The position numbers and the translations under genes were made by a program. Source: a virus. Taken from it: DNA of 64,000 bases. Of the stretch, positions 24,486 through 61,195 are shown piece after piece. The notes under the pieces are model-generated. The model ran no database searches. It was not told the origin of the DNA and saw nothing but the letters and a program-made list of their open reading frames with translations. The stretch spans positions 1 through 64,000 of the IMG/VR virus record IMGVR_UViG_3300042332_001411. One strand, 5' to 3'. Within the stretch, counting starts at the first letter, position 1. Each line of letters starts with the position of its first letter.

Positions 24486-24509
24486 AATATGGAAAAGGAA
24501 AAAATAAAA

Positions 24510-25529
24510 ATGACAATGACGATAGAAGATGTACTAGCGCAACTAGATCCTAAGTTACGTAAGACTGTAATGGCTGGAGATACAATACCCGCAACAGAAT
24601 ATGCTGCAACTCCCAGTTTTGGTTTAAATAAAGCATTAAGCGGTGGGCTGCCATACGGAAGACAAGTTTTAATTTGGGGAAGTAAGTCAAGCGCTAAATC
24701 TTCTTTATGTTTGCAAACAGTAGCACTTGCACAAAAAGAAGGAAAGGTATGTGCTTGGATAGATGCCGAAATGTCATATGATAAAAATTGGGCTGAAAAA
24801 CTTGGCGTAGACACATCAAAACTTATTGTTTCTCAATGTCGTACAATAAATGAAATGGTAGATATTGGAACTAACTTAATGAACGCAGGAGTAGATTTAG
24901 TTGTTGTTGACTCCATTACTTCTCTCCTTCCAGCAATATATTTTGAAAAGGATTCTACTGAATTAAAACAATTAGAGAATACAAAACAAATTGGTGCAGA
25001 GGCAAGAGACTTTAGCAATGCTTGGAAAATGATTAACTATGCTAACAATAAAATTAAACCAACACTGTTTGTTTTAATTAGTCAGTCTAGAAATAATATT
25101 AATGCAATGTATACTAGCCAACAGCCTACTGGCGGACAAGCCACTAAATTTTATTCTTCAACGATCATCAAACTGTTTTCTTCAGAATCAGACAATCAAG
25201 CAATTAAAGGGAAGATTTCTGTAGGTGATAAATTGATTGAAGAAAAGATTGGTCGCAAGATTAGATGGGACTTACAGTTTTCAAAAACAAGTCCAGGATT
25301 TCAATCTGGAGAATATGACTTTTACTTTAGGGGGAATTCGGTTGGAGTTGACAGTGTTGCTGATCTTATTGATACTGCTGAATTGATGGGGATAGTAGAG
25401 CGCACAGGGGCCTGGTACCTATTACCAGATGGATCAAAGGTGCAGGGAAGAGAAGGTTTTATTAATAAGGTTAGAGAAGACAAAGAATTATTTGCAGACA
25501 TTTTAAATAAGGTTAAACAGTTTGGATAA
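24510..25529 (+). CDS. recA: RecA-like recombinase
   Basis: An approximately 339-residue RecA/UvsX-type ATPase for strand exchange in repair and recombination-dependent replication. Features are SFGLNKALSGGLPYGRQVLI, a Walker A at GSKSSAKSS, DAEMSYDKNWAEKLGVD and a Walker B at LVVVDSIT. I favour the ATG at 24510 because AAAGGA (24494-24499) sits before it; an in-frame ATG at 24489 would add seven residues but has no ribosome binding site. The Walker A ends in SSAKSS rather than the classic GKT/GKS, retaining the Lys-Ser pair. It overlaps the next small gene by eight bases. Confidence 0.9.
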   Translation: MTMTIEDVLAQLDPKLRKTVMAGDTIPATEYAATPSFGLNKALSGGLPYGRQVLIWGSKSSAKSSLCLQTVALAQKEGKVCAWIDAEMSYDKNWAEKLGVDTSKLIVSQCRTINEMVDIGTNLMNAGVDLVVVDSITSLLPAIYFEKDSTELKQLENTKQIGAEARDFSNAWKMINYANNKIKPTLFVLISQSRNNINAMYTSQQPTGGQATKFYSSTIIKLFSSESDNQAIKGKISVGDKLIEEKIGRKIRWDLQFSKTSPGFQSGEYDFYFRGNSVGVDSVADLIDTAELMGIVERTGAWYLLPDGSKVQGREGFINKVREDKELFADILNKVKQFG

Positions 25530-25701
25530 ACAGTATTCGGTATATCCTGGCAAATTTTTATGTAAGACCTGCAACGAAGAAGTAACATCTATGAGGCTAT
25601 TTCCAGAAACAACAGAGTGTACTTGGATGTGTAGTAAAAAACACTTATCAAGAATGACCCTGGTAAAGCAAACAAGTTATACAAAGAGGGGTAGGGTATA
25701 A
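25522..25701 (+). CDS. Small zinc-knuckle protein (TTG start)
   Basis: A 59-residue protein starting with TTG inside the recA stop region (TTGGATAA). Cys14-x2-Cys17 and Cys33-x3-Cys37 suggest a bound zinc. It ends in Arg-Gly-Arg-Val-stop, and the last two codons (GTA TAA) are part of the TATAAT -10 box of the next gene. It fills an otherwise non-coding stretch of 180 bases, and both edges fit its neighbours closely. Function unknown. Confidence 0.6.
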   Translation: MDKQYSVYPGKFLCKTCNEEVTSMRLFPETTECTWMCSKKHLSRMTLVKQTSYTKRGRV

Positions 25702-25702
25702 T
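25694..25702 (+). promoter_or_regulatory. Leaderless promoter overlapping a stop codon
   Basis: GGG-TATAAT, with the TAA stop of the upstream gene inside the hexamer, ends six bases before the ATG at 25709. There is no room for a ribosome binding site in the transcript. Confidence 0.65.
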
Positions 25703-25708
25703 ATTATC

Positions 25709-26377
25709 ATGACTACTTTCCCACCCTTAGATGAATTTCCTGAATATAAAAAATTACGCACATCTCAAGACCCTATATCTGATCAAGATTTTATTCCAGT
25801 GCTAGTAGATAATGTTTTTACTGATGAAGAACTAAAAAATATATTACAAACAGTTAAATGGTTTCCTTTAGAAAAAATTAGAATTCAAAAGTGGGGTGGC
25901 CAAGGAGTTTTAGATCATATAACAATTTCAGACAGTGTACTTGCAAAAATACAAAAATTAGCATCAGAAGCGTGTAATAAAGAATTGGTTATTGCAGAAC
26001 ATTCTGTTGTTAAATATTCTCCTAAATATGGATATGAGGTTAAACTATTTCCACATTATGACACAAGGCTGGATGAAATGTTTGTCTTTGATATTCAATT
26101 AAAAACAAACGAGGATTGGGGAATAATTGTTGAAGGCAAACAGTTTAATCTTTTAGATAACCAGGCTTTATTATTTTCTGGTACCCAACAGATGCATTGG
26201 CGAGAAGACAAAAAATTGCAAGATGGCTCAGAAATTATAATGATGTTTTGCTGGCTTAAGCATAAAATTTCAAAACCTATATCTGAAAATCAATCAATGA
26301 TTATGCTTGAAAGACAAAAAGTTCTTCAAAAAGAAACAAATATACTAAGTGACGAAACTTTAAGGAAAGGGGTATAA
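25709..26377 (+). CDS. Fe(II)/2-oxoglutarate-type oxygenase, HWR family (1)
   Basis: A 222-residue protein with the double-stranded beta-helix residues expected for a non-haem iron oxygenase: His116-x-Asp118 (FPHYDTR) and His163 in QMHWRED, with Arg165 positioned to bind the 2-oxoglutarate carboxylate. Between them lie the family blocks VFDIQL, WGIIVEG and LLDNQALLFSG. It belongs to a group of six genes with the same layout and a constant 46-48 residue spacing from HxD to HWR. Substrate unknown; protein side chains, nucleobases and small molecules are all possible. Expressed from a leaderless promoter. First of two tandem paralogues. Confidence 0.72.
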   Translation: MTTFPPLDEFPEYKKLRTSQDPISDQDFIPVLVDNVFTDEELKNILQTVKWFPLEKIRIQKWGGQGVLDHITISDSVLAKIQKLASEACNKELVIAEHSVVKYSPKYGYEVKLFPHYDTRLDEMFVFDIQLKTNEDWGIIVEGKQFNLLDNQALLFSGTQQMHWREDKKLQDGSEIIMMFCWLKHKISKPISENQSMIMLERQKVLQKETNILSDETLRKGV

Positions 26378-26378
26378 G
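26370..26378 (+). promoter_or_regulatory. Leaderless promoter overlapping a stop codon
   Basis: GGG-TATAAG; the TAA of the preceding gene lies within it. Six bases separate the hexamer from the ATG at 26385. The arrangement and flanks match those at 25694 and 27995. Confidence 0.5.
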
Positions 26379-26384
26379 ATTAAT

Positions 26385-27719
26385 ATGAATAATTTTCCAG
26401 ACTACTCTAAATTGCCAGAATATAAAAAATTAAGAGAAGAACAAAAAGCAAATAATCAAATTTTAAATGATGAAGATTTACCGCCTTTTATTTTTAATAA
26501 TTTTCTATCTTTAGATGAATTATCATATATTCAAAATTTACTTAACAATGCTTCAGAAGATAAACTTGTTCTTAAAACTTGGGGTGGTCAAGGAGGATTT
26601 AATGCTCTAAAAAATGATCCGATATTTGATTTAATTTATAAAAGAATTAAACAATTTTCTAGCGATGCCTACGGAGAAGAATTAGAACTTCAGGATTTTC
26701 AATTTGCAAAATATACTTCTGATTTTGGGTATGAAGTAAAATTACCTCCTCATTATGACTCAAGGTCTAAAGAAACACTTGTTTTTGATCTTCAAATAGC
26801 AGCAAATCATAAGTGGGATATTATTGTAGAAGGAAAAGGGTATGATCTAAAAGACGGGCAGGCAATTTTATTTGGCGGAACTAACCAGATACATTGGCGA
26901 GAAAATAAAAAAATAAAATCAGGAGAAGAAACAATTTTACTTTTTGCTTTTTTAACTCATAAAAAACAAAGAGAGTTTAGCAATGATAGTTCCATCATTA
27001 TGCAAAAACGTAAAGCGTTATTAGAAAAAGAAACACAAATAAACGATATTCCAATAAAAATAGAAAACCATAAAAATTTTAGCGTTGAAGAAAGATCACC
27101 ACTAACACATAGCGGAAGATACGGCAATATTTTTCCAAAAGACGAAATTGATTTAATTTATGAAACAATAGATCTAAACTCTGATAATAGGACAACACAG
27201 GTTAAAATTTATGGCCAAAAAGTTTGGTTTATAGATCTTCCAGAAAAAATAAAAGATAGAGTCACACATCAAATGAAAATTATTCATAATCAAAATGTAA
27301 AATTAGAAGAAATTTCTTTTGCGAGGTATTCTAAAGAATACTCAGACATACCAGTATTAACCCCACACTATGACAACACATTTACGCATCCGAGGGTTAC
27401 CTTAGATGTACAATTAAGGGCTAATATTGATTGGCCTATTGTTGTGGAAGGTCATGAGATTATCCTTAGCAACAACATGGCTGCTGCTTTTTCTGGAACA
27501 CACCAAGTTCATTGGAGAAAGCCATTAGAATTCAAAGATGGGGATTTTGTAGAAATGTTGTTTTGTCATTTTTCTTTAGAGGATAGCCTGCCAATAACTT
27601 TAGATGAAAAACAAAAAATAGAATCAAACATGATGAGATTTTCAAATAAATTTTCTGTTGATTTAATGAAAGAAAATTTAGATTTAAAACAAGCAATAAA
27701 GAGGTATAGTAATGAGTGA
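26385..27719 (+). CDS. Two-domain oxygenase, HWR family (2)
   Basis: A 444-residue tandem duplication of the HWR oxygenase domain. Domain 1 has His123-x-Asp125 and His170-Trp-Arg172; domain 2 has His328-x-Asp330 and His376-Trp-Arg378. Both sets look complete, so both domains could be active. Domain 1 resembles the preceding gene closely, including the N-terminal FP-x-YSKLPEYKKLRE block, which points to a recent tandem duplication. Domain 2 lacks that block. The last eight bases overlap the next gene (ATGAGTGA). The substrate is not known. Confidence 0.72.
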   Translation: MNNFPDYSKLPEYKKLREEQKANNQILNDEDLPPFIFNNFLSLDELSYIQNLLNNASEDKLVLKTWGGQGGFNALKNDPIFDLIYKRIKQFSSDAYGEELELQDFQFAKYTSDFGYEVKLPPHYDSRSKETLVFDLQIAANHKWDIIVEGKGYDLKDGQAILFGGTNQIHWRENKKIKSGEETILLFAFLTHKKQREFSNDSSIIMQKRKALLEKETQINDIPIKIENHKNFSVEERSPLTHSGRYGNIFPKDEIDLIYETIDLNSDNRTTQVKIYGQKVWFIDLPEKIKDRVTHQMKIIHNQNVKLEEISFARYSKEYSDIPVLTPHYDNTFTHPRVTLDVQLRANIDWPIVVEGHEIILSNNMAAAFSGTHQVHWRKPLEFKDGDFVEMLFCHFSLEDSLPITLDEKQKIESNMMRFSNKFSVDLMKENLDLKQAIKRYSNE

Positions 27720-28002
27720 AAAAAATGAAATAAAAAGAATTAGTGCTATTCCTCATAAAAATTCTGGCAGAGGAAATAAAAAAGGAGATGCTACCTGGAA
27801 ATCTTTTGTAGTTGACATAAAGGAAGCAAAAAAATCTTTTACGTTAAATGAAAATGTTTGGGCAAAAATAACAACAGATGCCATTAAGTCTGGAGTTGAT
27901 AAATCTCCAGCACTAATAATAGTGTTGGGCGATGGGCCTAAAAAAACACGATTGCTAGTTGCTGAACTATCGGTTATTGAAGATTTGGTAGATAGGGTAT
28001 AA
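27712..28002 (+). CDS. Putative PD-(D/E)XK nuclease / resolvase
   Basis: A 96-residue protein. NSGRGNKKGDATWKSF followed by VVDIKEAKKSF fits a small restriction-like fold in which GD and the D-x-K type motif bind metal, as in phage Hjc-like resolvases. PALIIVLGDG would form the following core strand. It lies between RecA and the Cas4-like exonuclease, fitting a role in recombination. A RuvC-like protein is also present at 30 kb, so two resolvases would be redundant and the call is tentative. Its terminal GTA-TAA forms part of the next promoter. Confidence 0.45.
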   Translation: MSEKNEIKRISAIPHKNSGRGNKKGDATWKSFVVDIKEAKKSFTLNENVWAKITTDAIKSGVDKSPALIIVLGDGPKKTRLLVAELSVIEDLVDRV

Positions 28003-28003
28003 T
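27995..28003 (+). promoter_or_regulatory. Leaderless promoter overlapping a stop codon
   Basis: GGG-TATAAT with the stop TAA of the putative nuclease inside the hexamer, six bases before the ATG at 28010. Third example of the same arrangement in 2.3 kb, each before an HWR-family oxygenase. Confidence 0.65.
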
Positions 28004-28009
28004 TTTAAT

Positions 28010-28690
28010 ATGAATACTAATTGCGGAATTGTAAAAAATTTTTTTACAAGAGAAGAAGAAGAAGAACTTAGACTCCTAGTTGAAACAAATAGAATGCTAA
28101 CTCCTGGAGTAAGCAGATACTCCCCTATGACAATTGAGAGCATGTCAAGAGTACAGATTGAGTTTGATGCTCCAAACAACATTGTAGAAAAATTAAAAAA
28201 TCTTGCTTTAGAATATGTTAATGACCCAGACTTGGAGTTAACTCATTATCAATATTTAGATTATTATGGTAAATACGGTAATGGAAATTCCCCAAACCTT
28301 CCCCCGCACTTAGACACAGAAAATTACTATACAAAGGTTAGCATTGATTATCAAATGTCAAGCAATATAGACTGGGCCATTGTTGTAGAAGGGCAAGAAT
28401 TTTTTCTAAAAGATAATGAAGTCTTGGTTTTTGAAGCAGCAGACAGAATACATTGGAGATCGCCAATTAAACTAAAAGAAAATGACAGATGTGAAGTAAT
28501 TGTGTTTCATTTTTCCAATAAACATGACCATAAACCTTATGCAGAAAAACAAATGTCTCCAATAGAAAGAGAATTTATTATGGCAAAACATAACAATATG
28601 CCAAGAATGATTAAGTATAGAGAGCAATTTTTTGAACAACTAGAAAAACTGAAAAGAGGAAAAGATGGAGCCAGTAAAAACAACGCTTGA
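28010..28690 (+). CDS. Fe(II)/2-oxoglutarate-type oxygenase, HWR family (3)
   Basis: A 226-residue member of the HWR group: His100-x-Asp102 (LPPHLDTEN), WAIVVEGQEFFL and His148-Trp-Arg150. The N-terminus starts with an acidic run of five Glu (about residues 15-19). It is leaderless. The 3' end overlaps the next gene by 26 bases. Its substrate is unknown; within the group it is the member closest to the recombination nucleases, but that may only reflect gene shuffling. Confidence 0.72.
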   Translation: MNTNCGIVKNFFTREEEEELRLLVETNRMLTPGVSRYSPMTIESMSRVQIEFDAPNNIVEKLKNLALEYVNDPDLELTHYQYLDYYGKYGNGNSPNLPPHLDTENYYTKVSIDYQMSSNIDWAIVVEGQEFFLKDNEVLVFEAADRIHWRSPIKLKENDRCEVIVFHFSNKHDHKPYAEKQMSPIEREFIMAKHNNMPRMIKYREQFFEQLEKLKRGKDGASKNNA

Positions 28691-28970
28691 AAGCATTAAT
28701 GGTTTAGCAGAAATTGCAGAATATATGGACGATGAAGAACTTACAACTTCATTAGAAATGATTGCTAAATTAATTATCAGGCCAGATATCCCAATTGCAG
28801 TTGCTACTGTAGAAATAGTTAGATTGCAAGCAATTGCAGGAAAATTATCTTTAAAGGCAACCTGGATGGCCAATGTGGATAAAAGTAACAGGGCTAAGAA
28901 AAATATATACTACACTGCAGCAGAGTCAGTAAACAATTTAGTATCTGCTCTTAAATACATAGCACGCTGA
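28665..28970 (+). CDS. Helical hypothetical protein
   Basis: A 101-residue, largely alpha-helical protein (TTLESINGLAEIAEYMDDEE, ATVEIVRLQAIAGKLSL) with no recognised motif. It starts inside the previous oxygenase gene behind AGAGGA. Together with the Cas4-like gene that follows it may be part of the recombination group. Confidence 0.5.
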   Translation: MEPVKTTLESINGLAEIAEYMDDEELTTSLEMIAKLIIRPDIPIAVATVEIVRLQAIAGKLSLKATWMANVDKSNRAKKNIYYTAAESVNNLVSALKYIAR

Positions 28971-45826: not shown

Positions 45827-46375
45827 ATGCATAGAATAACAGTTATTGAAAATTTTATTGATAGCCAAGACGCCAAGGTTTTGATTGATGAAATGAAAAA
45901 TCCTTCTGAAACTAATCCATATCCAGAATATTATAAAAAAAGGTATGGCGGAACGGCATTTCCATATAATCCAACGGTTATGAATTTGCTTATTAAATAT
46001 GGAAAAAAATCTAATGATATTCATAAGTCATTAAATGGATATGTTAAGCCAATACATGTATTTAAAGCGTTTGGTTCTTGGTGGCAAGCGGGTACTAAAG
46101 GAGATTTACACATAGACGCACAGGGACCAGAGCCTTTTATTGAGTGGAGTACTATCATGTATCTTAATGATTCTTCAGAATATGAAGGCGGAGAGATTTA
46201 TTTTCCAAACCAGGCATTCTCATATAAACCTAAAAAATATTCTGCAGTATTTTTTCCAAGCGCAGGAACAGAATACGTGCATGGTATAACAGAAGTAAAA
46301 TCTGGTCATAGACACACCGCTTTATACATGCATGTTTCTAACAGACAGTTTGCTGATCCAGACTTTTTAAAATAA
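45827..46375 (+). CDS. Prolyl-4-hydroxylase-like 2-oxoglutarate oxygenase (1)
   Basis: A 182-residue enzyme of the P4H class. His95-x-Asp97 (GDLHIDAQG) and His152 (YVHGITEV) bind iron, and Arg162 (GHRHTALY) would bind 2-oxoglutarate. The block YEGGEIYFPNQ between them is the family signature. It hydroxylates C-H bonds, typically on proline in peptides. It follows the GT60-like gene by one base, so the pair could hydroxylate and then glycosylate a protein. Length matches small bacterial and viral P4Hs. Confidence 0.8.
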   Translation: MHRITVIENFIDSQDAKVLIDEMKNPSETNPYPEYYKKRYGGTAFPYNPTVMNLLIKYGKKSNDIHKSLNGYVKPIHVFKAFGSWWQAGTKGDLHIDAQGPEPFIEWSTIMYLNDSSEYEGGEIYFPNQAFSYKPKKYSAVFFPSAGTEYVHGITEVKSGHRHTALYMHVSNRQFADPDFLK

Positions 46376-46386
46376 AGCATAAGGAT

Positions 46387-46459
46387 TGGCTCATAACTCA
46401 GATGGTAGAGTGCCGAACTGTTAATTCGGATGTCCCAGGATCGAAACCTGGTGAGCCAG
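46387..46459 (+). tRNA. tRNA-Asn (GTT)
   Basis: A 7-bp acceptor stem TGGCTCA/TGAGCCA, D-arm ACTC...GAGT, anticodon stem CCGAA/TTCGG around loop CTGTTAA (anticodon GTT), and T-arm CCAGG/CCTGG. The discriminator base is G; CCA is not encoded. Confidence 0.93.
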
Positions 46460-46463
46460 CAAG

Positions 46464-46536
46464 GTCCCCATCGTCTAGTGGCCTAGGACGTCGCCCTTTC
46501 ACGGCGTTAACACGGGTTCAAATCCCGTTGGGGACA
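46464..46536 (+). tRNA. tRNA-Glu (TTC)
   Basis: Acceptor stem GTCCCCA/TGGGGAC, anticodon loop CTTTCAC (anticodon TTC), T-loop GGTTCAAATCC. The outermost anticodon-stem pair is T-T, a small deviation. CCA is not encoded. The discriminator A is followed by a single base and then the ATG of the next gene. Confidence 0.9.
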
Positions 46537-46537
46537 C

Positions 46538-46918
46538 ATGAACTTAGAAAATAATAAAAAGTCTTGCGGAGACTGCACTAAATGTTGCGATGGCTGGCTT
46601 TCTGGAACGGTACAGGGACACCCATTTGGAAATATAGGTGGCACAAGAATTCCTTGTAATTTTGTTTTACAAGGGAGTGGATGTGGAATATATGAACAAA
46701 GACCAAAAAACCCTTGTCGTAATTTTCAATGTGCGTGGTTAAAAATTCCAGAAGTTCCAGAACATCTTAAGCCAAACTTGTCTAATATAATTGTTACTCA
46801 AAGAGGATTTGGAATTTATGAACTTACAAAGGCTGGAGAAACAGTTAATAGTGAGGCTATTGACTGGTGGATAGAATATTGTAAAATTAATAATTTTAAA
46901 TTAATATATAGTCAATGA
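46538..46918 (+). CDS. CxxCxxCC (YkgJ-like) zinc/iron-chelating protein
   Basis: A 126-residue protein with Cys10-x2-Cys13-x2-Cys16-Cys17 (CGDCTKCC), then Cys40, Cys49, Cys60 and Cys65 (GSGCGIYEQRP, NPCRNFQC). This is the pattern of the YkgJ/UPF0153 family, thought to hold zinc or an iron cluster. The ATG lies two bases after the mature 3' end of tRNA-Glu, so tRNA processing would free an almost leaderless mRNA. Iron handling would fit with the many iron oxygenases, as inference. Overlaps the convergent gene by seven bases. Confidence 0.7.
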   Translation: MNLENNKKSCGDCTKCCDGWLSGTVQGHPFGNIGGTRIPCNFVLQGSGCGIYEQRPKNPCRNFQCAWLKIPEVPEHLKPNLSNIIVTQRGFGIYELTKAGETVNSEAIDWWIEYCKINNFKLIYSQ

Positions 46919-47619
46919 ATCAAAGTAAAATCTGCAAGACTATATTCAGGATTTTCTAGACTGCTCGGCATTGGAAAAGCAGATTCAAGCGTTGTATCTT
47001 TTAATCTGAGAAAAGATCTGTCATCAACAGAAACAAAATAAAGATTTTTGTCTAATTGTATTTTTTCTGTAGAGTTATAAATTTTTACATCTTTAATTTG
47101 TTCCCCACCAATTTTGGCAAAATTTCCATAGGATGATCTTGGGAAATAGGCAATGTCTAAAGATTCTCTAAGTTTATTTTTATTCATAACCATCGGTACA
47201 TGAATGTCATAATCGATTGGGTCTTTTATTCCGCTCATAACTAACTGTTTGTGTGTCAATTCTAATAAACGAATATAGACTGAAGCCATGCCCAACTCTT
47301 TATACTGTTTTATTTTATTAGAAAGAAGTCCCCCATGAAAATTTGGGACACTTTCCATTGTTTTTAAAGCAAAAAAATCATCATTCATTAAAACAAAGTC
47401 ATCAGATATTTCTGGATGCTCCGAAGCAACTTTAATGCAATTTCTAATATTATCAAATTTTTTAGCAGTATCTTCTATATATATAAAATCACCGATATAC
47501 CACACTGGTCGATATCCTAAAACCCAGACTCTTCCTTTAGGCATATTTTTTTCAATTGACCTTAAAGAATATTTTAATTCTTCATTTTCACCAGCACGAG
47601 CAATATAAACATAATCCAT
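46912..47619 (-). CDS. Stealth-type sugar-phosphate transferase
   Basis: A 235-residue protein on the minus strand. GENEELKYSLRSIEKNMP (about 11-28) and DDFVLMNDDFFALK (about 73-86) match conserved region 2 of Stealth hexose-1-phosphate transferases, with the NDDFF acidic centre. SSYGNFAKIGGEQI may correspond to a later region. It would transfer sugar phosphates onto glycans. It is shorter than bacterial Stealth proteins and lacks an evident CR1. Leaderless promoter at 47626-47631. Confidence 0.6.
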   Translation of the reverse strand: MDYVYIARAGENEELKYSLRSIEKNMPKGRVWVLGYRPVWYIGDFIYIEDTAKKFDNIRNCIKVASEHPEISDDFVLMNDDFFALKTMESVPNFHGGLLSNKIKQYKELGMASVYIRLLELTHKQLVMSGIKDPIDYDIHVPMVMNKNKLRESLDIAYFPRSSYGNFAKIGGEQIKDVKIYNSTEKIQLDKNLYFVSVDDRSFLRLKDTTLESAFPMPSSLENPEYSLADFTLIH

Positions 47620-47652: not shown

Positions 47653-49569
47653 ATGGCAAAAATCCTAGTTATAAGCGCAAATCTTCCAGATTGGTCCAAA
47701 AATAGTGGTGGTAAAGAAAGGACCTTGACGCTAGTTGAAGCGCTATCAGAGCATGAAGTAACATTTTTATCTTTTAATTGGGATAATGAACTAATTAATA
47801 AAAAAATTAATAAAAATTTACACCACTATCAGCCACAAATAGGGCACACTCTTTATAAACGTCGGCAAAGATTAGTTAATGATTTTGCAAAACTTAATCA
47901 TGATACAGTTTTTGAAATTTTAAAAGATGATTTAGAAATCTTTACTTCAACAGCAAAAGAATTATCAAAAAGTTGTGATCTTATAATCGTTGATCACTAT
48001 TCTGTTTCTCCCCTTCTTCAAAATATTAAAAATGTTCCGATTATTTATAATTCTCACAATGCAGAATTTGAGTTGGGGAAACAGGTTCATGGCGAAAGCA
48101 AAGAACTAATGGACTTAGTTGAAAAAATGGAAACTCGCATTTTAAAACAAGCACAAGAAATTACATATTGCTCTTCCGCAGATTTTGTAAAAATAAAGAA
48201 TCACTACGGACAAAGTATTCGTGGAAAATATATTCCAAATGGAACAATAGTCCAGGATAAAATAAATTATGAAAATAGACTTAGGTCTAGGGATATTATT
48301 TTTGTTGGTAGTGGCCATCCACCAAATAAAGCAGCAGCAAAAAAAGTTGTTGCATTTGCTCAGTCCATGCCAGAATTTAATTTTATTATTATAGGGGGGT
48401 GCGGTAGTGGCATTAAATCTCCAAACATTCCTAGCAATGTTCAAATTGTTGGTCATGTAAATGATGAATTATTAGATAAATATTTTAGAACATCTTTTGC
48501 TTTTGTTAATCCTATGCTTAATGGTTCTGGAACACATTTAAAAATGATGAAAGCCCTGGGATATGCAATTCCAATAATAACATCAACCGTTGGTGCAAGA
48601 GGGTTTTCTGATCAAGAAATAGAAGAGGCAATGCTAATTGCAGATACAGAGGATGACTTTTATCAAAAAATTAAAACACTTAAAGATAAAGAAGTTTATA
48701 AGAATTTATGTGAAAATGCATATAAGCACTCAAAAACCTATGATTGGGATAAAATAAAAAAAGATTATGCAAATTTTATTGATGAATGTATAAATAAGTA
48801 TGCTGAAAATAAAACAAAAGAGGCTAATCTCAAAAAAGAAAAAGAAAAAATTCTAATATGTTCTATTGTTAGAAATGACGAACATTTCTATTTAGACTAT
48901 TACAAGAAAATTAAAGCAATGGTAGATTTTTTTCCAGAATACGAGTTTTATTTGTCTTTATATGAGAATGACTCAGTAGATGCGACAAGCAGTTTAATGC
49001 TCAAACAAGACTATTCAATGTTTAATGGTGTGTCAATTATTTCTGAAAAAATTAATACACGGTTTTATGGTTCTTCAAAAGATGAGGATAGAGTAAAAAA
49101 CCTATCACTGGCAAGGAACAAAGCCTTAACAGCAAACAACTTTTTAAATAGTGTTAATTATGTTTTAATGATAGATGTAGACGTAGATTTTAAAATGTCC
49201 GATGTTGAAAAAATATTAAACTTTAAAGACCTAGAGCCTAATTTTAATATTGTTGCAGCAGCAACCAAAAGAAGAAGGGTTCTGTATGATCAGTGGGCAA
49301 CAAGAGAAGGGCCAAGGTATGACCCAGCAATTCAAGAGTTGTTTGAGCAATATAAAAAAGAAAAATATACAAAATATTATTCTGTTTCTAGTGGGTTTTG
49401 TTTATACCAAGCCCAACCATTTAAAGATGGGGCTAGGTATGGCTATATAAATAAAGAAACTGGTGAGCCAGATTGTGAAATGGTAGTTATTTGTCAAGAA
49501 TTTCAAGAAAGGGGGTATAAGAATATATACATGGCTAATCAAGCAGAAATGACACATAATCATAATTAG
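47653..49569 (+). CDS. Two-domain glycosyltransferase (GT4 plus CAP59/GT69-like)
   Basis: A 638-residue fusion. Residues 1-385 are a GT-B transferase of the GT4 type (SANLPDWSKNSGGKERTLTL at the start; FVGSGHPPNKAA; GSGTHLKMMKALGYAIPII with the nucleotide-sugar-binding end). Residues about 398-638 are a GT-A domain resembling the cryptococcal CAP59 mannosyltransferase group: ICSIVRNDEHFYLDYYKKI, SLYENDSVDATSSLML, SLARNKAL and VLMIDVDVDF (metal-binding Asp triplet). A single polypeptide could add two sugars in sequence. The acceptor is unknown. Confidence 0.75.
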   Translation: MAKILVISANLPDWSKNSGGKERTLTLVEALSEHEVTFLSFNWDNELINKKINKNLHHYQPQIGHTLYKRRQRLVNDFAKLNHDTVFEILKDDLEIFTSTAKELSKSCDLIIVDHYSVSPLLQNIKNVPIIYNSHNAEFELGKQVHGESKELMDLVEKMETRILKQAQEITYCSSADFVKIKNHYGQSIRGKYIPNGTIVQDKINYENRLRSRDIIFVGSGHPPNKAAAKKVVAFAQSMPEFNFIIIGGCGSGIKSPNIPSNVQIVGHVNDELLDKYFRTSFAFVNPMLNGSGTHLKMMKALGYAIPIITSTVGARGFSDQEIEEAMLIADTEDDFYQKIKTLKDKEVYKNLCENAYKHSKTYDWDKIKKDYANFIDECINKYAENKTKEANLKKEKEKILICSIVRNDEHFYLDYYKKIKAMVDFFPEYEFYLSLYENDSVDATSSLMLKQDYSMFNGVSIISEKINTRFYGSSKDEDRVKNLSLARNKALTANNFLNSVNYVLMIDVDVDFKMSDVEKILNFKDLEPNFNIVAAATKRRRVLYDQWATREGPRYDPAIQELFEQYKKEKYTKYYSVSSGFCLYQAQPFKDGARYGYINKETGEPDCEMVVICQEFQERGYKNIYMANQAEMTHNHN

Positions 49570-50826: not shown

Positions 50827-51402
50827 TTGAATAGCCAAGTATTTAGCAATATTTTTGATATCGATACGATCAACAACCTAAAGCAATTAAAAAATAGTAT
50901 TGATGGCCGAATAGATAGAAACAAGGGAAGAATTATTCGTTCAATACCAAATATATCCTTATTGCCAAAAGAAGTTGTTACAATTCTCACAAACAAAGCA
51001 TCAGAACTTTATGGTAAAAATTTAAAATTATATGCAGCAGCATTTGGTCAATATGGCAAAGAGTTTGGCGATCCTAAATTAACCCCCCATATAGACGAAG
51101 TGCCGTCACAATTTACAATAGACTATCAACTAGATGGCAATGTCGATTGGTCAATAGTTATTGAGGGCAATGAGTATTGGCTAAAAAATAATTCAATTCT
51201 TACATTTGAGGGAGAAAATGTTTTGCATTGGCGCCCTAAAAAAGAGTTTTCTGACAACGAGTTTTTAGATTTAATCTGGTTTCAATTTATAGATGACGAT
51301 CATTGGTCTTATAAAACAGATGTGCGTCCAGACTTTAAAGAATATAAGAAAAATTTTAGAGAAAAAATGAGCCGTTGGGAGAGCACATATAATGCAATAT
51401 GA
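50827..51402 (+). CDS. Fe(II)/2-oxoglutarate-type oxygenase, HWR family (4)
   Basis: A 191-residue HWR-group oxygenase starting with TTG. It has His88-x-Asp90 (LTPHIDEVP), VDWSIVIEGNEYWL and His134-Trp-Arg136, with the group's 46-residue spacing. Unlike the three copies at 25-28 kb it has a normal leader and ribosome binding site. The last 11 bases overlap a P4H-type oxygenase, so members of two oxygenase families are made from one message. Substrate unknown. Confidence 0.72.
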   Translation: MNSQVFSNIFDIDTINNLKQLKNSIDGRIDRNKGRIIRSIPNISLLPKEVVTILTNKASELYGKNLKLYAAAFGQYGKEFGDPKLTPHIDEVPSQFTIDYQLDGNVDWSIVIEGNEYWLKNNSILTFEGENVLHWRPKKEFSDNEFLDLIWFQFIDDDHWSYKTDVRPDFKEYKKNFREKMSRWESTYNAI

Positions 51403-52033
51403 AATTAAGGCTGCTGGAATGGTATATTATAAAAATGCTATAGAAAATACTGAAGAAGTAATTAGTTCTATTGAGTATATGCAAAGTCAACTTGAAAAAG
51501 GTGTTTCAAGCGCTGCTCAGCCATGGCACGAGTGGAATGGGGCTAATCCCGAAATAGAAAAATTTTGCATAAGGCACTTTATAACTGAGCCTAAAAATGT
51601 GTCTAAACTAGATCCCCTTTATTCTCATATATCTTTTGTTTATGATAAAATTTTTGGTGGTATTGAAAAAGCATACAATCATTATTCAAAAGAGTTGTAC
51701 CCTCATGCATCTCAAAATATTAAGTCAACAGAAGGTCTGTTAAGTGTTTTAAAGTATGGAACTACTGGATACTTGCCAGAACATCAGGACCAAGGGGTTA
51801 GTAGTAGAGTTTTGTCTACAGTGGCTTACCTAAATGATGATTATGTTGGTGGAGAAATTTATTTTCCACAAATAGATGTTGAAATTAAACCAGAGGCTGG
51901 AAGCGTTATATTTTTTCCATCAAATTTTGTTTTTACCCATACAGTAAAACCTATTGAGAAAGGTTTTAGATATGCAGTACCACAGTGGTATCACAGTTTA
52001 AAGGAACCAAGAATGTCAACAGGAGAAGTCTAA
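51392..52033 (+). CDS. P4H-like 2-oxoglutarate oxygenase (2)
   Basis: A 213-residue oxygenase: His131-x-Asp133 (LPEHQDQG), the YVGGEIYFPQ block, KPEAGSVIFFPS, His183 (FTHTVKPI) and Arg193 (GFRYAVPQWY). All iron and co-substrate residues are in place. It is translated from within the end of the HWR gene and overlaps the FmdB-like gene by one base. The extra 90 N-terminal residues may bind a specific protein substrate. Confidence 0.8.
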   Translation: MQYEIKAAGMVYYKNAIENTEEVISSIEYMQSQLEKGVSSAAQPWHEWNGANPEIEKFCIRHFITEPKNVSKLDPLYSHISFVYDKIFGGIEKAYNHYSKELYPHASQNIKSTEGLLSVLKYGTTGYLPEHQDQGVSSRVLSTVAYLNDDYVGGEIYFPQIDVEIKPEAGSVIFFPSNFVFTHTVKPIEKGFRYAVPQWYHSLKEPRMSTGEV

Positions 52034-53398: not shown

Positions 53399-53986
53399 AT
53401 GTATAAAATTATTGAAAATGTTTTTTCAAAAACAGAAATTGATTATCTAAAGGATGTGTTTGAAAAAAGGGAAACTTTAAAACTTTATACTTTTCGTCCA
53501 GATACGGGAAGAATTTCTATAACCATGCCCCCGAATTCAATAAAACCAGAAATAGTTGCCAAAGTGCAAGAAATTATTAAAAGTGTTTATGGTAAAGATT
53601 ATGAAATTAAAGATATTGGATTTCAAAGATATAAATTACAGTATGGCATTCCAAATTTAAAGCCACATATAGATGACCAAAAATGTCAAATTGTATTTGA
53701 CTATCAAATTGAGTCAAATAAAAACTGGGATCTTGTTGTTGAAGGAGAGTCTATAAGTTTAAATGATAATGATGCTGTTGTTTTTGAAGGAGAAAAAGAT
53801 GTTCATTGGAGAAATCCAGTGCATTTTAAATCACATGAGTATGTATCGATGCTTAATTTTAATGCCGTTGACAAAGATCATTGGAGCAATTTCACAGAAA
53901 TAGACCCAATTGGGCCAGAAGAATTAAAAAAAATTCGTACAAGCATCGCAGAAAAATGGAAAAATAATTACCCTATTAAAGATTAA
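53399..53986 (+). CDS. Fe(II)/2-oxoglutarate-type oxygenase, HWR family (5)
   Basis: A 195-residue HWR oxygenase: His90-x-Asp92 (LKPHIDDQK), NWDLVVEGESISL, NDNDAVVFEGE and His136-Trp-Arg138. The first residues (MYKIIENVFSKTEI) and many inner blocks are nearly the same as in the copy at 60620, making these two the most similar pair in the family. The gene has a short leader without a clear ribosome binding site. Substrate unknown. Confidence 0.72.
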   Translation: MYKIIENVFSKTEIDYLKDVFEKRETLKLYTFRPDTGRISITMPPNSIKPEIVAKVQEIIKSVYGKDYEIKDIGFQRYKLQYGIPNLKPHIDDQKCQIVFDYQIESNKNWDLVVEGESISLNDNDAVVFEGEKDVHWRNPVHFKSHEYVSMLNFNAVDKDHWSNFTEIDPIGPEELKKIRTSIAEKWKNNYPIKD

Positions 53987-55848: not shown

Positions 55849-56064
55849 ATGTTAATTAAAAAACTAGAAGAAGCCGAGCAAATTGTTAAATCTAATAAAG
55901 ATTTAAGATGGTTTGGCTGGGATATAATTTCAAGAGAAATTACAATTAATGGATTTAGTCATAAGTCTGGATCATTTCTTAATAACCGTTGGGGCATTGA
56001 TAGGCGCTATCCAATAACGGAAAAAGGCTGGTACTTACCAAACAATTTGGGAGTAAAAAAATGA
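55849..56064 (+). CDS. Small hypothetical protein
   Basis: A 71-residue protein after a good AAAGGAG site. It has a tryptophan-rich core (RWFGWDIISREITING, NNRWGIDRRYPITEKGWYLP). It overlaps the P4H-type gene by four bases (ATGA), so the two are coupled. Not recognised. Confidence 0.55.
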   Translation: MLIKKLEEAEQIVKSNKDLRWFGWDIISREITINGFSHKSGSFLNNRWGIDRRYPITEKGWYLPNNLGVKK

Positions 56065-56789
56065 CAAATTATCAACCGTATCAAAACTATTTTGATGTTT
56101 TAGGAAAAAATAAAGACAACATTGTTATAATTAATAATTTTATTAGCCATGAAGATTTGCTAGCCATTAATGATTATCTTGATTTGTACGAAAATAATGA
56201 TGAATTTATGGGCGGAAAAGATTTAAGAGAAGATCAAGTTGAAAAAGAAAATCCAAAAGTTGCAAAAATTCTTGATAAATATGAGAAAAAAATATATGAA
56301 AAAGTAAATGAACTTTTTACTGAAAAATATAAAATTCCTATTATTAGAAAGCCAGTTAACTCTACGCATTTTGTTAAATGGATCCCTGGGATGAATTCTA
56401 AATTGCACTCTGATTGTGAAAAACCAGATGGGACTCCAGCATATGCTGCAGATTTTTATACTTATAATGTAGCAGTTTTGATGTATCCAAATGACAAATA
56501 CACTGGGGGAGAAATTACTTTTCCAGACTATGATTTAGTTTTAAAGCCAAAGCCAGGAGATATGATTATGTTTCCAGGAAACAATGCATACAAGCATACA
56601 GTTCAAAGAGTAGAAAGTGGAACCAGGTACACCATGCCATCTTGGTATGCTTTTGATGTTAATGAGGCGCCTAAAGAGTCTAAGAAATATTCATACTTAG
56701 ATTCTGTTCAACTTTGGGAAGGTCTGCCAGATTTTGACAAAATAGACCCAGTTGGTATTGATGTTAGGAAGTATAATGAAGGATCATAA
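56061..56789 (+). CDS. P4H-like 2-oxoglutarate oxygenase (3)
   Basis: A 242-residue oxygenase: His116-x-Asp118 (SKLHSDCEKPDG), the YTGGEITFPDYD block, KPKPGDMIMFPGN, His179 (AYKHTVQRV) and Arg189 (GTRYTMPSWY). The active site is complete. It starts in an ATGA overlap with the small gene before it and runs 14 bases into the WhiB gene. Substrate unknown; the family prefers peptidyl proline but other substrates occur. Confidence 0.8.
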   Translation: MTNYQPYQNYFDVLGKNKDNIVIINNFISHEDLLAINDYLDLYENNDEFMGGKDLREDQVEKENPKVAKILDKYEKKIYEKVNELFTEKYKIPIIRKPVNSTHFVKWIPGMNSKLHSDCEKPDGTPAYAADFYTYNVAVLMYPNDKYTGGEITFPDYDLVLKPKPGDMIMFPGNNAYKHTVQRVESGTRYTMPSWYAFDVNEAPKESKKYSYLDSVQLWEGLPDFDKIDPVGIDVRKYNEGS

Positions 56790-60619: not shown

Positions 60620-61195
60620 ATGTATAAGATAATTAATAATTTTTTTAATGAAGAAGAAATAAATATTATATTAAATAATATAAAAGAAACAGAAGATTCA
60701 GGGGCTGGACAAATATATAGGCAGACAGGAAGAAAATTAATTGGTTTAGATAGTTTAAATAGAGATATTATTGATAAAGTTGAAGCCTACGTTAACAGCA
60801 CATATAATAAAAAATTAATAGTAAAAGATATTGGTTTTATGAGGTTTAAAAAAGAATATGGAACCCCAAAACTATTGCCACATAAAGATGACTATGCTTG
60901 CGAAGTAGTATTTGATTATCAAGTTAAAACTAATAAAAAATGGGATTTGTTTATTAAGGGAGAAAGAATAGAGTTATTAGATAATGATGCAGTTTGCTTT
61001 GAGGGAGAGGAAGAAGCGCACTGGAGAGAAAAGGTGTTATTTGGTGATGATGAGTTTGTAGAAATGATTTGTTTTAATTGTATTGGCGAAAATCATTGGA
61101 GACATTCGTCTACAACAAATCCTTTAAATGAAATTGAGCAAGCAAAAAAAACAAAACAAACTTTTAAAGATTGGTCTCATATATATTCTGGTTGA
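60620..61195 (+). CDS. Fe(II)/2-oxoglutarate-type oxygenase, HWR family (6)
   Basis: A 191-residue HWR oxygenase: His88-x-Asp90 (LLPHKDDYA), KWDLFIKGERIELL, DNDAVCFEGEEE and His134-Trp-Arg136. It is the closest relative of the copy at 53399 (both start MYKII). Leaderless. Its last 19 bases overlap the end of the convergent two-domain oxygenase. Substrate unknown. Confidence 0.72.
   Translation: MYKIINNFFNEEEINIILNNIKETEDSGAGQIYRQTGRKLIGLDSLNRDIIDKVEAYVNSTYNKKLIVKDIGFMRFKKEYGTPKLLPHKDDYACEVVFDYQVKTNKKWDLFIKGERIELLDNDAVCFEGEEEAHWREKVLFGDDEFVEMICFNCIGENHWRHSSTTNPLNEIEQAKKTKQTFKDWSHIYSG

Follow-up and report, generated by a model that had tools for sequence, protein, structure and literature searches.

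Predicted leaderless promoters fused to upstream stop codons at accessory oxygenase genes in a phage replication block

Three oxygenase-like genes with an HWR motif, here termed ox1, ox2 and ox3, lie among the DNA-replication genes in a 64,000-nt stretch of viral DNA (the window; positions 1 to 64,000 of IMG/VR record IMGVR_UViG_3300042332_001411). Each starts behind nearly the same short string, within which the preceding gene ends. What does this string do, and how did it come to stand before all three genes? An earlier note had taken the genes for products of amplification, in which each duplicated unit took along its promoter as well as the end of the gene before it and thus formed a self-contained cassette that could be inserted after any gene.

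The near-identical 18-mer at the three starts is real. The pattern GGGTATAA(T/G)-N6-ATG, i.e. GGGTATAAK-N6-ATG, has three matches in the window, all on the + strand and each at an oxygenase start (the promoter rows of Table 1 begin at the match positions), against a chance expectation of 0.04 per window, and none of 100 shuffles reached three. The whole 70,785-base record likewise contains three matches and none to a reversed-pattern control. It was also confirmed that the upstream reading frame closes inside the -10 box at every junction, read as GTA-TAA. This shared frame is partly forced and less coincidental than it appears, because TAA is the sole stop that TATAAT holds, so that a gene ending within the box must end nTA-TAA. 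The N-terminus described as common to ox1 and ox2 is indeed shared, with a spacing of five residues rather than four (FP-x5-PEYKKLR; FPPLDEFPEYKKLR and FPDYSKLPEYKKLR).

Table 1. Features of the replication block around the three oxygenase-like genes (window coordinates).
Feature	Position	Strand	Remark
RecA/UvsX-like recombinase	24489..25529	+	backbone anchor for comparison
znf, small CxxC zinc-finger-like gene, upstream of ox1	25522..25701	+	TAA within ox1 -10 box
ox1 putative leaderless promoter, GGG TATAAT + 6 nt	25694..25708	+	hexamer 25697-25702; znf stop 25699-25701
ox1, N-type HWR oxygenase-like protein, 222 aa	25709..26377	+	
ox2 putative leaderless promoter, GGG TATAAG + 6 nt	26370..26384	+	hexamer 26373-26378; ox1 stop 26375-26377
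ox2, 444 aa, two HWR domains: N (ox2N) ~aa 1-225, C (ox2C) ~aa 226-444	26385..27719	+	
HJR, Holliday-junction-resolvase-like, phrog_2002	27712..28002	+	stop within ox3 box
ox3 putative leaderless promoter, GGG TATAAT + 6 nt	27995..28009	+	hexamer 27998-28003; HJR stop 28000-28002
ox3, HWR oxygenase-like protein, 226 aa	28010..28690	+	orthologous between HJR and p9818 in every filled relative examined
p9818 (phrog_9818), backbone gene	28665..28970	+	right border of ox3 slot

The geometry of the string points to a promoter for leaderless transcripts. At all three junctions the hexamer stands exactly 6 nt before the start codon (offset 6), no Shine-Dalgarno sequence is present at the usual spacing, and the GGG run sits 12 nt from the ATG. 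A search of the three junctions for a convincing -35 element found none, and among terminator-like sites on the + strand between 24400 and 30200 there is a single one, inside ox2, and none at the junctions. Across the window, a -10 hexamer is found at offset 6 in 9 of 77 genes, where 0.5 would be expected (0.7% of null ATGs; binomial p ~5e-9), and ox2, with TATAAG, is a tenth. An SD-like 4-mer 3-11 nt upstream is absent from all nine and present in 36 of the 77 window genes overall. Such a box is ordinary for this phage family, at unrelated genes too: within the window it precedes genes at 705, 39151, 52766, 54033 and 59224 that are unrelated to oxygenases, and in a divergent gene pair (46912-47619 on the - strand, 47653-49569 on the + strand) TATAAT lies 6 nt and 7 nt before the ATG, respectively. 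In 30 related contigs, GTATAAT-N6-ATG also stands before thioredoxin-like, small lipoprotein-like and conserved unknown-function genes, the former two named by judgement of their sequences. The two putative promoters of the divergent pair are of the leaderless type and lie back to back across a 33-bp gap. In the replication loci of relatives, a second peak of -10 hexamers is seen at non-oxygenase genes, 20-23 nt before the ATG, and is predicted to represent a conventional promoter class with a short leader.

Leaderless mRNAs are common in Actinobacteria; in M. tuberculosis, a quarter of the genes are leaderless and a TANNNT box lies 7-12 bp before the transcription start site (TSS) (PMC3898074). 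Cluster O mycobacteriophages, too, have predicted leaderless promoters (PMC4351075). Among annotated relatives, the virus comes closest in its DNA polymerase to Streptomyces phages of the Stanwilliamsviridae (~53% identity), which makes an actinobacterial host likely. We consider it probable that each junction is an internal promoter of the sigma-70/SigA type for a leaderless mRNA of an accessory oxygenase, with its box embedded in the upstream stop. RNA polymerase would use the TATAAT box and begin the RNA 6 nt further on, with the first letter of the start codon, and the oxygenase would be translated without a Shine-Dalgarno sequence, independently of the replication operon. The box would overlap the end of the upstream gene because these phage genomes leave almost no intergenic gap, and that gene would end in GTA-TAA because the hexamer offers no other stop. 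The oxygenase genes themselves would be accessory genes resembling morons, each kind held to one of three fixed slots between DNA-replication genes.

Assignment of the gene products relies on the predicted fold and on invariant residues. An AF2 model of ox3 (pLDDT 89.4) gave 465 matches at E <= 0.001 in a Foldseek search of the PDB, and the best listed are 2OG-Fe(II) oxygenases. As in these enzymes (6n1f, PHD2 and ALKBH5 by fold), a double-stranded beta-helix is predicted and an HxD...H triad is invariant: among 21 sequences H100, D102, H148, W149 and R150 never vary, with H100/D102/H148 as the triad. Unlike in these enzymes, an invariant HWR, whose Arg (R150) follows the second His at H+2, seems to stand in place of the usual distal Arg, the 2OG-binding Arg/Lys downstream of the second His. 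Identity to solved structures is 10-15%; a sequence search against solved structures returned nothing relevant, and a Pfam search gave no 2OG-FeII model match for ox1-ox3. The PHROGs label 'ferrochelatase' for their family (phrog_2954) is probably wrong, since the predicted fold and the triad point to a 2OG-Fe(II) oxygenase. We refer to ox1-ox3 as oxygenase-like; the model suggests that they may use iron and 2OG.

More genes of this kind are found outside the block. HWR-family genes lie at 50827-51402, 53399-53986 and 60620-61195, the last being the only one of the three with a leaderless-type box (GATATAAT-N6-ATG, lacking the GGG run). Three others, at 45827-46375, 51392-52033 and 56061-56789, match Pfam 2OG-FeII_Oxy_3 above cut-off, which brings the number of oxygenase-like genes in 64 kb to at least nine. 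A tRNA-Asn and a tRNA-Glu gene lie side by side at 46387-46537. In the relatives L128, L132, L145 and L150, GGTATAAT-N6-ATG precedes genes of a further family, which has the N-terminus '...ENFMTQEEIEFLEKAAKSL' and looks like a different 2OG-oxygenase family.

Where the oxygenase genes sit becomes apparent from relatives anchored on RecA, in which the order RecA-znf-HJR-p9818-Cas4-HNH is kept. Of 67 distinct genomes, 52 have no oxygenase in the backbone from RecA to Cas4, whose genes there overlap or abut, and the cultured Streptomyces phage BillNye has RecA, one small gene and an overlapping resolvase without any oxygenase. Filled slots hold one or two oxygenase genes between znf and HJR, always ox3 between HJR and p9818 (three oxygenase genes in L029, L030 and L032), and, in L029-L033, an oxygenase between RecA and znf. 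The oxygenases are accordingly accessory insertions that separate genes adjoining each other in most relatives, and single genes or domains are present in some relatives and absent from others, a pattern that the earlier note had proposed to look for with single cassettes; insertion after any gene is too broad a claim, the slots being RecA/znf, znf/HJR and HJR/p9818. A scan with a family alignment added 33 distinct ox3 homologs of ~35-40% identity, located between HJR and p9818 wherever flanks are present. With two matches from L179, all 35 distinct members of this distant set have a box at offset 6-7 and an upstream stop in or adjoining it (consensus built from 32 rows). As judged from these alignments, the junction of HJR and ox3 is deeply conserved, stop codon included. 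Searches for further relatives of the RecA/znf and HJR/N-type oxygenases added no new lineages, tblastn of ox2 and ox3 against annotated phage genomes found no oxygenase relatives, and in bacterial and archaeal genomes none was confirmed. A first rooted RecA tree placed all filled genomes in one clade within the empty ones. Once the distant ox3 carriers are added, the tree, with a very long outgroup branch, no longer fixes the branching order, which would accord with one gain of oxygenases or with several.

The box accompanies the oxygenases across these relatives. With the best start chosen, 31 of 51 distinct oxygenase starts have it at offset 6; with the start not chosen, 25 of 46 oxygenase ATGs do, compared with 8 of 1013 others in the compared loci (p 4e-31, kinship ignored), and six of these eight lie elsewhere in this window. 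Within the replication block the offset-6 box is almost confined to oxygenases. The upstream frame ends at the box in 20 of the 25 offset-6 oxygenases versus 1 of the 8 other offset-6 genes (kinship again ignored). Like junctions arising as often in unrelated genes, which the earlier note had named as telling against it, are partly observed: unrelated genes in relatives do share the promoter but rarely its fusion to a stop. All these counts are inflated by the relatedness of the compared genomes, in which independent events are few. Nor are promoters retained at every oxygenase, as the ox2 place has the weak TATAAG here, GGATAAT in L026 and no promoter-like box in L036 and L042. Of the self-contained cassette, the promoter-like element before each of the three genes stands, whereas promoter plus gene is a hypothetical mobile unit.

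As to the origin of the string, amplification of the oxygenases together with their promoter and the preceding tail would account for three near-identical 18-mers within a 2.3-kb stretch, for the box at both paralogs ox1 and ox2N, and for a DNA likeness between junctions from ~-16 to ~+9 relative to the ATG (blastn: ox1/ox3 26 bp at 85%, ox2/ox3 22 bp at 91%). Beyond -20, however, likeness between the junctions falls to the level of chance: over the 30 positions -50 to -21 the three pairs share 9, 6 and 11 of 30 positions, against 8.4 +/- 2.5 for random 30-mers. Moreover, the znf and HJR proteins of filled genomes are native up to their last few residues, znf ending ...KKDFE-V before its stop in L018 and ...KKDFE-DE in empty genomes. 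Since the tails are native and this upstream likeness is lacking, no upstream tail was copied, and amplification is already largely refuted for the tail; the upstream genes were apparently shortened or altered in their last few codons only, so as to accommodate the box. Box likeness does not follow gene kinship either (in -20..-7, ox1 is closer to ox3 than to ox2), and the HWR genes at 50827 and 53399 lack the element. All four domains have HWR, and protein identities among ox1, ox2 and ox3 are 27-41%, with the N-type ox1 and ox2N as the sole near pair (41%). In the domain tree, ox2C and ox3 form separate deep branches, the latter a deep orthologous clade at one slot. Identities and tree speak against a recent triplication, and recent amplification of all three is not supported, the genes being old paralogs. 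Overall, amplified units are an unlikely origin. That the string acts in translation, as a ribosome-binding or similar element, is suggested by its position at gene starts and by the start-associated sequences (SAS) of cluster K mycobacteriophages, which are similarly placed and may include upstream stops (PMC3203893); yet the distance of the G run from the ATG, the missing Shine-Dalgarno sequence and the recurrence of an exact TATAAT at a constant 6-nt spacing at the divergent pair and other unrelated genes render this reading very improbable.

Two further accounts fit parts of the evidence. Turnover of oxygenases is real, and in two cases the moving unit appears to be a gene body behind a fixed promoter. 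In the RecA/znf slot, L029 (4600-6420) and L030 or L032 (8900-10780 and 8900-10280) are ~95% identical in DNA through promoter and ATGAAT, after which non-orthologous oxygenase bodies follow. Between this phage and L026, ox2 is 84% identical up to ATG+15 nt, a 640-nt N domain is then absent from L026, and 79% identity follows. The C-type domain makes up a gene by itself in L017-L020; in this phage, L082, L080, L015 and L007 it is joined to an N-type domain. Conceivably, then, the string from ~-16 to +9 serves as a short homology that lets one oxygenase body replace another behind an unchanged promoter and start codon, and the likeness between junctions has just this extent. Against this, the independent cases number only two, a 159-aa oxygenase gene present in L030 and missing from L032 has no such box, ox3 shows no exchange, and selection for intact genes would in any case place breakpoints at gene boundaries. 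Such a joint is possible rather than probable. The promoters may instead have arisen in place from the stop-codon region without any movement, as the TAA of a preceding gene, followed by an ATG, already supplies half a -10 box. Empty slots can already contain a G-rich run, TAA and ATG (L044 ataggagaataaaATG, L092 ggagaataatATG), a few changes from GGGTATAAT, and frames vary between slots: in L030 the HJR end reads GGT-ATA-ATA-TAA through the box, and L020 has TACAAT as its box, with the upstream stop shifted one codon downstream. The G run before TATAAT nevertheless recurs at several slots and is missing from the non-oxygenase leaderless-type genes of the window, which leaves convergence conceivable without making it the expected course. 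A combined role of box and start as a fixed socket, in which a conserved regulatory element doubles as short homology for exchanging oxygenase bodies with expression and frame unchanged, seems rather doubtful.

If the junctions are leaderless promoters, as we favor, accessory genes could enter a gapless operon and yet be expressed alone, at a cost of a few codons to the preceding gene. With the leaderless geometry, promoters could be read straight off phage DNA in metagenomes, and the junction of HJR and ox3 would be a deeply conserved sequence under three constraints, namely stop codon, -10 box and start spacing.

Phage morons are accessory genes that have entered between conserved genes and bring their own promoter and terminator. 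The oxygenases resemble them in separating genes that adjoin each other in relatives and in having, in silico, a promoter-like element of their own; they differ in that no terminator was found, and in their fixed slots within a replication block and their leaderless design. With the leaderless SigA-type promoters of M. tuberculosis (PMC3898074) and Cluster O phages (PMC4351075), they share a TANNNT box that sets the TSS at the start codon, without SD or required -35; here the box lies inside a packed operon, holds the upstream stop and is preceded by a G run, and the TSS is a predicted one. Cluster K SAS, GGGATAGGAGCCC with the SD core AGGAG, are likewise short repeats just before the ATG of several genes, sometimes with an upstream stop codon (PMC3203893), whereas the junctions consist of a -10 box at a fixed distance of 6 and contain no GGGATAGGAGCCC-like AGGAG-core sequence. 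Finally, the T4 mobile regulatory cassettes or PeSLs (Arbiol 2010, Comeau 2014), as far as they are portrayed in the articles citing them (PMC4177764, PMC4503421), have a stem-loop and are much longer, and the junctions differ from them further in leaderless geometry and in shuffling that amounts to two cases; what the two have in common is a promoter motif at a module border that may act as a joint for shuffling.
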